Assembly (NCBI GenBank): GCA_002688315.1
Contig: NZCN01000009.1
Location: forward strand, 1-58,965
DNA length: 58,965 bases
DNA from: Candidatus Woesearchaeota archaeon
Lineage (GTDB): Archaea; Nanobdellota; Nanobdellia; Woesearchaeales; UBA10216
Direction of reading: 5' to 3'
The translations under genes and the position numbers were made by a program. The notes under the pieces are model-generated. The model had not been told where the DNA came from and did no database searches. It saw nothing but the letters and a program-made list of their open reading frames with translations. Positions 3,125 to 58,965 of this stretch are shown piece by piece. The first letter of the stretch is position 1, and every line of letters begins with the position of its first letter.

Positions 3125-3628
3125 ATGGTTGAAAAATTTATTGATATTGTAGACGAAGAAGATAATGTAACAGGCAAAGCAACCTATGAAGAAATAATGG
3201 ATAAAGGATTGATTTTCAGAGCAGCAAATGTTTTTGTTTTTAATTCTAAAGGAGAGCTGTTTGTGCATAAAAGAAGCAGAAATCTTTCTACGTTCCCTGG
3301 CATGTACGATGTCAAAATGGGCGGTATTGTTGACTCAGGCGAATCTTATGATGAAGCTGCAGTCAGAGAGCTAAAAGAAGAAAGCAGAATTGAAAATATT
3401 GAGCTGGAATTTTTGTTTACATTCAAGTTCAGAAGCAGCAAGTACAAAAACAACAGGAAAGTTTACAAATGCGTTTATGACGGAGATATAACGCTTCAGG
3501 AAGAAGAAATCGAAGAAGGAAGGTTCATGACAATAGAAGAAACAAAGAAACTAATTGAAGAAGGAAAAGTATCTGAATCTGCTGTTGAAGTTTTTAAAGA
3601 ATACCTGAGAAAACGAAAAACGTTATAA
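3125..3628 (+). CDS. NUDIX hydrolase (IDI-like family)
   Basis: NUDIX enzymes hydrolyse nucleoside diphosphates linked to another group. The Nudix box is visible: a Gly, then Glu in SGES, then REL-x-EES. The usual final Gly of EExG is Arg here (EESRI). The flanking layout (AANVFVFNSKGELFVHKRS, FPGMYDVKMGGIV) resembles the COG1443/isopentenyl isomerase-like branch rather than MutT. True IDI is encoded elsewhere in the window (46290-46811), and this protein lacks the TNTVCSHP active-site cysteine motif, so it is probably a hydrolase of unknown substrate. ATG 3125 is preferred to TTG 3113. It ends 27 nt before the pyrD start, and the pyr TATA box overlaps its 3' end. Confidence 0.8.
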   Translation: MVEKFIDIVDEEDNVTGKATYEEIMDKGLIFRAANVFVFNSKGELFVHKRSRNLSTFPGMYDVKMGGIVDSGESYDEAAVRELKEESRIENIELEFLFTFKFRSSKYKNNRKVYKCVYDGDITLQEEEIEEGRFMTIEETKKLIEEGKVSESAVEVFKEYLRKRKTL

Positions 3629-35107: not shown

Positions 35108-35238
35108 GCGGGGGTAGCTAAGTCCGGCTAAAAGCGATAGACTCAAGAAAGTTGAGTGGTGAGCGAAAGCAATGATCGCCCATTTATGCGGAATCTATTC
35201 CCTTAGTGGGTTCAGGGGTTCAAATCCTCTCCCCCGCA
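35108..35238 (+). tRNA. tRNA-Leu (CAA) with an anticodon-loop intron
   Basis: The acceptor stem is GCGGGGG (35108-35114) with CCCCCGC (35231-35237) and discriminator A 35238; CCA is not encoded. The T arm is 35214-35230. The anticodon stem ATAGA (35137-35141) pairs with TCTAT (35194-35198). The loop reads CT-CAA-G plus one base, so the anticodon is CAA, and the long variable arm fits Leu. An intron of about 45 nt lies at position 37/38 (about 35148-35192). It contains TTGAG, complementary to the anticodon-loop CTCAA. The central splice helix is imperfect, so exact junctions are uncertain by one or two bases. A T-rich run follows from 35239. Confidence 0.92.
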
Positions 35239-56793: not shown

Positions 56794-57447
56794 TTAAAAC
56801 TCATCCATCTTTTTCTGCTTCTTCATTGCAAGCATTTTCTTATAAGGAGCCCATGTTTTCCTGAAGATATCAGGATGTTTTTCAGCGTTTTCCTTCAAAA
56901 ACTTGGCTGTTTTCGGATCTGCCATGTATCCAGAACCAAAGTCTCCTGCTTCTTTTTTAATTTTTTCTATTTCTTCCTCTCTTGTAACCTTTGCGAGTAT
57001 GGAAGCAGCAGCACACTCAACGTAATTTAAGTCTGCTTTATGCTCAACAACAGCATCAACCTTTTTGTTGTCAAGCAAGTTTAGCAAGTATTTTTTGTAA
57101 GCACTAACATTGTTGCTCGGACAGTCAATTATAATTTTATCCGGCTTTAGTGCATTAATTATCTTGGCAGAAGTCTGAGCTTCAAGCCAGTTAAGATTTA
57201 AGTCATCAGATTCTAATGCTGCGTCTATTTCTTTTGGAGATACTACAAGTATCTTATGTTTTTTAACAATAGAATTTATTTTCTTGAACAAAGCAACTCT
57301 TTTTTTTTGCGATAATAATTTAGAATCTTTCACTCCAATGCTTTTCAAACTCTCAATGTCTTCTTCGTCCACCAATACGCCTGCCATTACCATGCTTCCT
57401 ATCAATGGACCTCTAGCCGCTTCATCAATTGCTACTGTTAAAACCAT
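56794..57447 (-). CDS. rnhB: Ribonuclease HII
   Basis: RNase HII cuts RNA in RNA-DNA hybrids, including single ribonucleotides in DNA. Catalytic acids are Asp8 and Glu9 (AIDEAARGPLIG), an Asp in IIDCPSNN and one in HKADLNYVECAAASILAKVTR. The GRG motif that recognises the ribonucleotide reads Ala-Arg-Gly here. Length 217 aa is typical for archaea. A minus-strand TATA-like element (57477-57465) lies about 24 nt before ATG 57447; the tRNA-iMet promoter lies next to it, in the opposite direction. Confidence 0.93.
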   Translation of the reverse strand: MVLTVAIDEAARGPLIGSMVMAGVLVDEEDIESLKSIGVKDSKLLSQKKRVALFKKINSIVKKHKILVVSPKEIDAALESDDLNLNWLEAQTSAKIINALKPDKIIIDCPSNNVSAYKKYLLNLLDNKKVDAVVEHKADLNYVECAAASILAKVTREEEIEKIKKEAGDFGSGYMADPKTAKFLKENAEKHPDIFRKTWAPYKKMLAMKKQKKMDEF

Positions 57448-57525
57448 AAACTATCAGTGTGAGAAGCAGTTTTTAAAGTTTTAGCCTAAAGATTTATAAA
57501 TCAATCTAAGGTTCTTTTGCTTTAT

Positions 57526-57682
57526 AGCGGAATAGGGCAGAATCTGCAACACGAGTTGTAGTTGTCCAACTAGGAGTGCCCGATGGGCTCATAACCCATA
57601 GGTCGCTGGAAGTTCAATAGGAACTAGCGAATTCAAATTAGTGAATGTTTTGGCATTTACTATGGGTCTCCAGCTTCCGCTA
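57526..57682 (+). tRNA. Initiator tRNA-Met (CAU) interrupted by three introns
   Basis: Exons 57526-57540, 57570-57609, 57632-57637 and 57669-57682 join into a 75-nt tRNA: acceptor AGCGGAA/TTCCGCT with A1-U72, D arm GGGC/GCCC with a 10-nt loop, anticodon stem ATGGG/CCCAT (three G-C pairs, initiator mark), loop CTCATAA, T arm GCTGG-TTCAAAT-CCAGC, discriminator A. Each intron has a bulge-helix-bulge with cuts after the second base of each 3-nt bulge. D-loop intron: central helix GGGC/GTCC, bulges AG|A and AA|C. T-arm introns: CGCT/AGCG with GG|A and AA|T; and TTCA/TGGG with AA|T and TC|T. The last motif forms only after the middle intron has been removed. A TATA-like ATTTATAAA lies about 27 nt upstream. 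Confidence 0.9.
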
Positions 57683-58870
57683 CTTTTGAGCCAAAGCGAG
57701 TATTCGCTTTGGCTTTTTTTTAATTGCATAAAATTTTCTCTGTAATTTGTCAACTTTAATTAGTTCTATTTTGTTTTTATTTATTAAACGATTTAAGACA
57801 TCTCTTACAGTAGCATTATTTATTTTTAAATTTCGTGTAATTTCATTTCGGTAACTGGTTTTGCTACGTTGTATATAAGAGAATATTTGTTGTTCATTAA
57901 GTTCAGGATTTGTTCTTAGTCTAGTAATATTAACGCTATTCTTCAGTTCTCTTGCTTTCTTTCGACCTACTTGTGTTACAAAATATCCTTTTTTATCAAT
58001 AGAAAGATATCTTTTTTGAATAAGTGTTGTAATCCTAGCATGGATAGCACGTCTACAAAGATAATTAAAGAGCTTATGTACGTCTCTTATGCTGAAAAAT
58101 TTTTCTTTTAAATCTAAAAGTTTTACCAAAGTTATTTCCCATGCTTTTGACTTAAAATTCTTAACAACATCCTCTAATCTTTTTTGATGTGATTTCAGAG
58201 CAAAGCCTATTCTTAGAAACTTAGTTACATTTTCTTTATCTCCAAAATAAAGCATGTATTTGTAACCGTAATCTTTTATATAATACTTTAAGATTTTTGA
58301 ACGTATATCAAATTTTGTGTTTAATAATTTACATAGTTCTTGCAGATACGATAAATCAACACTATGAAATCTGACATCGTTCCCTTTCCTGTAATCATAT
58401 ACTGATCCTTCCATAGCGAAAGCATAACGTAAATAAGTAATCACAACATTTTCTGGAGAGTTCCAAATCCATTTCGGAATTCTAGCATCTTCATCAGATT
58501 TATGAATATCTAAACAAGAATGTAAAAATCTAGAAAAAGTACTTCTTGAAATGTGTAACATTAAGCAACCATTCTTTTCAGTAATTCTCCCAGATATGCC
58601 GAAATATTTGTAACATATATCTGCAAACTCTTTTACTTTTTGCAAATCTTTCTTTTGCGAAAACATAACAGAAGAATAATTTTTCCCCACACACCCATCT
58701 AAAATCATAGCTGCTATTTTCGCTAAATCTTCATTCAATATTATCGGAAGTTTAATGTAAAAAGGGTATGCTTTACCGTATTGCAAACAAACGGTTCCAT
58801 TCTGTTCAGAATAATTAAGCTCTTTCGGAATATCTTTCTTTTCAATTTTAAGGTATGTTGTTTGATACAT
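57680..58870 (-). CDS. LAGLIDADG endonuclease-like protein with C-terminal winged helices
   Basis: Two LAGLIDADG-type helices are visible: LAKIAAMILDGCVGK (about residues 49-63) and VVITYLRYAFAMEGSV (about 142-157), with acidic Asp58 and Glu154 at the catalytic positions. After them come two winged-helix-like stretches, about residues 255-315 and 335-390 (SYRNEITRNLKINNATVRDVL). The protein could be a homing endonuclease or a DNA-binding regulator evolved from one. ATG 58870 is chosen over TTG 58936: GGAGGAGA lies 7 nt upstream. The TAG stop (57682-57680) overlaps the last three bases of the tRNA-iMet gene. Confidence 0.75.
   Translation of the reverse strand: MYQTTYLKIEKKDIPKELNYSEQNGTVCLQYGKAYPFYIKLPIILNEDLAKIAAMILDGCVGKNYSSVMFSQKKDLQKVKEFADICYKYFGISGRITEKNGCLMLHISRSTFSRFLHSCLDIHKSDEDARIPKWIWNSPENVVITYLRYAFAMEGSVYDYRKGNDVRFHSVDLSYLQELCKLLNTKFDIRSKILKYYIKDYGYKYMLYFGDKENVTKFLRIGFALKSHQKRLEDVVKNFKSKAWEITLVKLLDLKEKFFSIRDVHKLFNYLCRRAIHARITTLIQKRYLSIDKKGYFVTQVGRKKARELKNSVNITRLRTNPELNEQQIFSYIQRSKTSYRNEITRNLKINNATVRDVLNRLINKNKIELIKVDKLQRKFYAIKKKPKRILALAQK
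57689..57721 (+). terminator. Hairpin and T8 terminator after tRNA-iMet
   Basis: AGCCAAAGCGA (57689-57699) pairs perfectly with TCGCTTTGGCT (57704-57714), 4-nt loop, followed by a T-run to 57721. It begins 7 nt after the tRNA end on the plus strand and would terminate the tRNA transcript. On the minus strand the same bases encode the last residues of the LAGLIDADG-like protein. Confidence 0.65.
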
Positions 58871-58903
58871 TTTATTCTCCTCCAAAAACCTCAATCTAAC
58901 GTT

Positions 58904-58934
58904 GAGATTTCTTGCACTTGTTGAAAGAAATCTC
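58904..58934 (-). promoter_or_regulatory. Hairpin in the leader of the LAGLIDADG-like gene
   Basis: GAGATTTCTT (58904-58913) and AAGAAATCTC (58925-58934) form a perfect 10-bp inverted repeat with an 11-nt spacer, 34 nt upstream of the start codon at 58870. It may be a leader hairpin or operator. Its presence argues against starting translation at the upstream TTG 58936. The last 31 bases of the window show no recognisable gene. Confidence 0.4.
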
Positions 58935-58965
58935 ATAGTTTGGCGAAGAGGACTTCTTAGCCAAG

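Follow-up and report, generated by a model that had tools for sequence, protein, structure and literature searches.

An initiator tRNA gene interrupted by three bulge-helix-bulge introns in a Woesearchaeales genome, and zero to five introns in the same gene of its relatives

The initiator tRNA locus and its surroundings

The window analysed here, the whole stretch of 58,965 nt, is contig C9 of a 912,474-base, 15-contig assembly with an estimated completeness of 99.7%. Direct reading of a 157-nt stretch on its forward strand (57526-57682) reveals an initiator tRNA gene composed of four exons (15, 40, 6 and 14 nt) and three insertions (29, 22 and 31 nt). The features of the locus are as follows.

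56794-57447 (-): RNase HII gene, divergent neighbour (Pfam PF01351, 1.8e-42)
57493-57501 (+): putative TATA-box-like element TTTATAAAT, 25-33 nt upstream of the tRNA, read from the sequence
57526-57540 (+): exon 1, tRNA positions 1-15 (acceptor 5' strand, positions 8-9, D-stem 5' strand, A14 and G15)
57541-57569 (+): intron 1, 29 nt, in the D loop at position 15/16
57570-57609 (+): exon 2, positions 16-53 (D loop and stem, anticodon arm with CAU, variable loop, T-stem 5' strand)
57610-57631 (+): intron 2, 22 nt, at position 53/54
57632-57637 (+): exon 3, positions 54-59 (T-loop UUCAAA)
57638-57668 (+): intron 3, 31 nt, at position 59/60
57669-57682 (+): exon 4, positions 60-73 (T-stem 3' strand, acceptor 3' strand, discriminator A)
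57683-57720 (+): probable terminator region, with a T tract (CTTTT) and a hairpin GCCAAAGCGA/TCGCTTTGGC with a T run, judged from the same letters
57680-58936 (-): LAGLIDADG endonuclease-like ORF, convergent neighbour, separate from the tRNA (PF14528, 1.3e-8), true start probably near 58870

Joining the exons without 57541-57569, 57610-57631 and 57638-57668 yields AGCGGAATAGGGCAGCTAGGAGTGCCCGATGGGCTCATAACCCATAGGTCGCTGGTTCAAATCCAGCTTCCGCTA, a 75-nt initiator tRNA. The spliced product, which runs from AGCGGAA to UUCCGCUA, folds into a full cloverleaf carrying the A1-U72 pair, the CAU anticodon and, within GGG CUCAUAA CCC, the GGG/CCC base of the anticodon stem; the CCA end is not encoded by the gene. 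ARAGORN identifies this product as tRNA-Met(cat) with a score of 118.0, and it is the same mature tRNA as in 51 intron-free relatives. The unspliced locus is matched by neither ARAGORN nor Rfam, and all that a permissive Rfam search returned were sRNA matches at the downstream terminator, rejected as due to chance.

The intron boundaries were determined by two methods. In a SPLITS-like search of all 15 contigs, bulge-helix-bulge (BHB) candidates were spliced in silico and the products submitted to ARAGORN, amounting to 250,935 combinations of one to three BHB introns. The best register for the initiator locus is exactly the triple listed above, scoring 118.0 against 110.4-112.0 for neighbouring registers, and the identical triple is again the top reading when the scan is extended with canonical-loop introns. 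The same pipeline applied to three Markov-shuffled genomes (about 250,000 combinations each) gave zero tRNA matches. Additionally, identical boundaries emerge from an independent spliced alignment that used a profile built from intron-free relatives. An earlier, sequence-only reading of this DNA had proposed these three insertions around a 75-nt archaeal initiator tRNA and had named SPLITS as a check; both methods confirm the proposal, and the SPLITS-like search returned that reader's own triple as the best register.

The three-intron gene is the only initiator found in this draft genome and is thus apparently single-copy. Specifically, the anticodon-arm word GGGCTCATAACCC has a single exact occurrence in the genome, and BLAST with the mature consensus matched the initiator locus alone; the sole one-mismatch match to GGGCTCATAACCC was rejected as a second initiator, not being tRNA-like. 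The genome search for another initiator suggested by the sequence-only reading therefore came back empty, by word search and BLAST across the 15-contig draft. Because all initiation depends on one tRNA, every protein would require three correct splicing events.

The spacing between the RNase HII gene and the tRNA is 79 nt and is kept at about the same length in the same-genus genome G001 (by tblastn); the closest relatives of the RNase HII are labelled Woesearchaeota or Nanoarchaeota. TTTATAAA/TTTAAA words lie upstream of the initiator gene in many relatives. The stop of the LAGLIDADG ORF overlaps the last 3 bases of the initiator tRNA, and no counterpart of this ORF was seen beside the initiator gene in G001, G002 or G005. 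In total, three LAGLIDADG-family ORFs of the genome overlap tRNA ends (57680-58936 (-) in the window, C8:56-718 (+) and C5:18615-19391 (+)): those at the initiator and at an elongator-Met-like gene on C8 converge on the tRNA 3' end, and the one on C5 runs into the 5' end. The residues EENKM at the probable start are common to the LAGLIDADG ORFs of C9, C8 and C15. A link between these ORFs and the gain of tRNA introns is worth testing.

Other tRNA genes of the genome are interrupted as well. ARAGORN run without introns recovers 18 tRNAs, and at least 34 tRNA loci were called in an inventory that is incomplete. Apparent two-intron tRNAs lie at C1:22298-22444 (+), C6:3056-3173 (-) and C8:704-845 (-), with introns in the D loop and anticodon loop or both around the anticodon, and a leucine-type tRNA at 35108-35238 (+) of the window carries an intron of about 34 nt (ARAGORN; Rfam 43.3 bits). 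A tRNA-Arg(TCG) gene (C14 near 3300-3351, -) and a tRNA-Glu-like gene (C15 near 1210-1247, -) share nearly identical 59/60 T-loop introns, reading CATACTCACTG[G/A]CGTTCGTA..., a likeness suggesting that one tRNA gene acquired its intron from another by transposition or conversion, a mechanism already proposed for Thermoproteales. Transposition into the initiator gene from other tRNAs of the same genome was considered and rejected, as its three introns show no convincing similarity to them (best match 14 nt, E=0.03). Standard tRNA finders miss such genes, and apparently missing tRNAs in DPANN genomes may hide behind introns. Elsewhere in the window, the ORF translations across 3656-30017 read as an extended series of genes for de novo biosynthesis of pyrimidines and purines, which is unusual for a sub-megabase DPANN genome.

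Intron motifs and the modelled order of removal

All three introns display a 4-bp central helix (H) between two 3-nt bulges, with the cut after the second bulge base, just as the sequence-only reading had described. In intron 1, the central helix is GGGC(57535-57538):GUCC(57564-57567), flanked by bulges AG|A and AA|C, and the outer helix has at most 2 bp. In intron 2, the central helix CGCU(57604-57607):AGCG(57626-57629) is accompanied by an inner helix h' of AGUUC:GAACU and by bulges GG|A and AA|U, and no outer helix is present. Introns 1 and 2 are therefore of the relaxed HBh' type, lacking the outer helix h that a strict hBHBh' motif contains. In intron 3, the central helix UUCA(57632-57635):UGGG(57663-57666) contains two U-G pairs, whereas h' extends over 9 bp (UAGUGAAUG:CAUUUACUA). 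The outer helix of intron 3 is the T stem itself (GCUGG:CCAGC), which is joined to H only once intron 2 has been removed, so that h exists only after that step; this contiguity, pointed out in the sequence-only reading, is confirmed.

The small insertions could alternatively be remnants of mobile elements or group I introns, an idea to which the LAGLIDADG endonuclease-like gene touching the tRNA 3' end lends some colour. However, group I introns are much longer than 22-31 nt, Rfam finds none in the 58,965-nt window, and all three insertions carry the BHB bulge signature, common to relatives at the same sites. We regard this origin as extremely improbable and treat the insertions as BHB introns.

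Base-pair probabilities were computed for all eight splicing intermediates at 37 C, using energy models that represent the RNA without protein, modifications or co-transcriptional folding. In the full precursor, the central helices of introns 1 and 2 are formed (H1 1.00, H2 0.99) and the T stem is absent (0.00). The T stem cannot form while H2 is paired, because H2 uses the T-stem bases 57605-57607. Removal of intron 2 raises the T stem to 0.90, and to 0.99 with intron 1 also gone. When intron 3 goes first in the model, the T stem reaches 0.97 and H2 drops from 0.99 to 0.02, so that the motif of intron 2 is lost and intron 2 would be trapped. On the other hand, intron 1 is unaffected in every modelled intermediate, and its removal looks independent of that of the other two.

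Does this competition impose an order? Both in the studied gene and in relatives, the outer helix of the 15/16 and 53/54 introns is very short or lacking, and an enzyme that cuts them must cope without it; the inner helix h' of intron 3 forms with a probability of about 0.98 with or without intron 2. Intron 3 could thus be cut as a relaxed HBh' motif like introns 1 and 2, the introns being real and their order not obligatory. Against this stand the great weakness of H3 without the T stem, with a modelled pairing of only about 0.08 even after intron 2 removal, and the predicted loss of H2 if intron 3 leaves first. We consider removal without obligatory order possible but less likely than not. 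The modelling supports intron 2 before intron 3 as a preference rather than an obligation, with no fixed order for all three; an order is not strictly needed, because an enzyme that cuts introns 1 and 2 already does so with little or no outer helix. Sequential splicing as claimed in the sequence-only reading thus survives for introns 2 and 3, as a favoured order, and falls away for intron 1 and as a requirement. Ordered removal of close introns, in which one may have to leave before the next motif forms, has already been described by the tRNAscan-SE 2.0 authors (PMC8450103).

Initiator tRNA introns across the order

One initiator locus was identified and spliced in silico in each of 111 genomes of the same order, and ARAGORN calls the spliced product tRNA-Met(cat) in 111 of 111. 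Accepted loci scored at least 85, against less than 5 for loci holding no initiator. Seven loci that were mis-centred or without an initiator were left out (spliced scores below 5, with four to eight nonsense introns) and serve as accidental negative controls; two low-scoring loci, G003 (52.8) and G014 (68.6), were also excluded. The number of introns per initiator gene is zero in 51 genomes, one in 27, two in 13, three in 15, four in 4 and five in 1; counts at sites 38/39-40/41 are approximate, since junction calls there have weak motifs and are probably 37/38 in another register. The sequence-only reading had thought three introns unusual in such a genome, which does not hold within the clade, where 20 of the 111 relatives have three to five. 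The four-intron genes belong to G001 (same genus), G008 (same family), G038 and G082, and the five-intron gene to G078 (locus L254 on C82), with introns at 20a/21, 29/30, 37/38, 43/44 and 59/60.

The intron sites of the studied gene recur among these relatives: 15/16 in 8, 53/54 in 10 and 59/60 in 13. Combinations vary, with 15/16 and 59/60 occupied in the same-family G005 and 15/16 and 53/54 in G030. In the same-genus G002, the initiator carries an intron homologous to intron 3 (ACAGTAAATGTTTTCGCATTTACTGGGATTC vs TTAGTGAATGTTTTGGCATTTACTATGGGTC), together with introns at 29/30 and 37/38 instead of 15/16 and 53/54. In this homologue, the end pair of h' changes from U-A to C-G and an inner G-U becomes A-U. 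The series from zero to five introns suggests that introns have been gained and lost rapidly throughout the lineage.

The motifs themselves are conserved. The bulge signature, G|A on the 5' side and AA|Y on the 3' side, is common to the 15/16 introns and to almost all 53/54 introns, and the site and bulges of intron 1 are identical in eight relatives. The outer helix is absent from the 53/54 introns in all genomes examined and has at most 2 pairs in the 15/16 introns, which makes both groups relaxed HBh' introns, with H and h' maintained across relatives; the 59/60 introns of relatives use the T stem as outer helix. Covariation was assessed by permuting intron strands among genomes and counting exon-intron central-helix pairs, with P values that are rough because the genomes are related. 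At 53/54, 43 of 44 H pairs are formed vs 37.7 expected (P=0.0008), and at 29/30, 81 of 84 vs 71.7 expected (P=0.0002). At 15/16, all 36 of 36 H pairs are formed, but the H5' exon strand is invariant and carries no covariation information; the same applies at 59/60, where nearly all pairs are formed on an invariant exon strand.

These data bear on whether the locus might be a decayed, unspliced initiator pseudogene, with the working initiator lying in an assembly gap. The assembly is a 15-contig draft, and ARAGORN and Rfam fail to see the gene before splicing, both of which would fit such a view. Yet splicing in silico gives a flawless cloverleaf in which every initiator mark is present, the intron motifs are maintained by covariation, and the estimated completeness of the assembly makes an intron-free copy hidden in a gap unlikely. 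Moreover, BLAST of the multi-intron relatives, including the four- and five-intron genomes and the same-genus G001 and G002, showed no intact initiator copy, so that the same gap would be needed repeatedly. A pseudogene is accordingly very unlikely, slightly less so than an origin from mobile elements or group I introns. Taken together, we are highly confident in the reading of the locus as a functional, apparently single-copy initiator gene with three BHB introns at 15/16, 53/54 and 59/60, which would be spliced by EndA, normally with intron 2 before intron 3, and would undergo fast intron turnover.

The splicing endonuclease and comparison with known systems

Searches returned a single EndA gene, which a contig break divides: the end of C5 and the start of C13, which are adjacent contigs, share exactly 99 bases and jointly encode a protein of 175 aa. 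The protein contains PF02778 and PF01974, that is, N-terminal and catalytic domains with the Y/H/K residues, and is an alpha-type enzyme encoded by the one gene found; this is the outcome of the check on endonuclease subunit type that the sequence-only reading had proposed. Its best solved relatives are the catalytic subunit of Nanoarchaeum equitans (3iey_A, 1.2e-38), a two-domain Methanopyrus kandleri protein (5x89) and Methanocaldococcus jannaschii EndA (1a79), with the last of which it aligns nearly end to end. A search of the genome for another EndA gene, such as a separate beta subunit, found none by PF01974/PF02778 at E<=10 or by protein search, at which a diverged beta could escape. An EndA homologue is present in 56 of 59 genomes searched, nearly always one per genome. 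The RtcB ligase gene lies on C14.

Reviews tie the cleavage of relaxed motifs to (alpha-beta)2 and epsilon2 enzymes and to CSL/ASL loops (PMC6379350, PMC12397907). In a comparison covering 1a79 and ARMAN-2 EndA, the EndA of this genome has, relative to 1a79, no insertion resembling a CSL/ASL loop before the second N-domain strand; ARMAN-2 EndA has about 7 extra residues at this place, and the EndA proteins of relatives agree with the one studied. The sequence-only reading held that non-canonical sites need a broad-specificity endonuclease; the intron sites are indeed noncanonical and two of the motifs relaxed, yet the gene found is a single alpha-type one without such an insertion, and an enzyme of a known broad-specificity type was not identified. 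Either the alpha-type EndA may be broad in some other way, or the searches may have overlooked a partner subunit that has diverged.

From the boundaries, motifs, apparent single copy, recurrent sites, covariation, EndA and RtcB genes and modelled helix competition, we infer how the gene is matured. EndA would cut each intron in its two 3-nt bulges and RtcB would ligate the exons; intron 1 would be removed independently, and intron 2 would normally be removed before intron 3, through competition between H2 and the T stem. The introns would be members of a pool of short introns with rapid turnover, gained and lost by Woesearchaeales tRNAs at a fixed set of positions. A bolder claim, for which we judge the chances evenly balanced, is that the collinear tRNA genes of Woesearchaeales are the most fragmented on record, the single initiator containing as many as five introns, and that competition between motifs and stems imposes the order in which a homotetramer-type EndA, lacking the known loops, cuts their relaxed HBh' introns. 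If this is true, the accepted link of broad specificity to CSL/ASL loops or a heteromeric enzyme is incomplete. The clade offers a natural series of zero to five introns in one essential RNA, which allows tests of intron gain and loss, of ordered removal and of whether relaxed motifs demand a special loop or a second subunit in EndA.

Multi-intron tRNAs are known in Thermoproteales (PMC4390854, PMC8450103) and in N. equitans and ARMAN (PMC4033280), in line with what the sequence-only reading had stated on Thermoproteales and ARMAN/DPANN lineages. ARMAN (Micrarchaeota, with epsilon2 EndA) resembles the studied genome in being DPANN with multiple, noncanonical tRNA introns, but the EndA of ARMAN-2 is a three-unit enzyme with an ARMAN-specific loop (PMC12397907), neither of which is found in the EndA studied here. 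In the Asgard Atabeyarchaeia and Freyarchaeia, reported in 2024, 92-95% of tRNAs have introns and over half have several (PMC11291895); the likeness is that many tRNAs carry several introns, in another phylum. Disrupted initiators are known as well, namely the split initiator of N. equitans and the permuted initiator of Thermofilum pendens (PMC3218864). Both need BHB cleavage to mature, as the studied gene would, and the break in T. pendens lies at 59/60, the site of intron 3; however, the former is trans-spliced and the latter permuted, whereas the studied gene is one collinear gene with three cis introns.

The closest precedents in intron number are the three-intron tRNAs of Thermoproteales, Pyrobaculum calidifontis tRNA-Glu(UUC) and P. 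islandicum tRNA-Pro(UGG) (PMC4390854, PMC8450103), which likewise have as many as three short BHB introns per tRNA, located at noncanonical positions. They differ in tRNA isotype and occur in hyperthermophiles with a heterotetrameric EndA, whereas here the affected tRNA is the initiator, the host is a Woesearchaeota-like DPANN archaeon whose single EndA gene is of the alpha type, and relatives have four and five introns. The studied gene is a new case of a known kind, three being the stated published maximum per archaeal tRNA. The initiators with four and five introns in relatives go beyond this limit of three, as given in the literature up to 2021, and no report of four was found in a search of freely accessible article texts. 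The stronger finding, beyond the single gene, is the lineage-wide series of zero to five introns in one essential tRNA.
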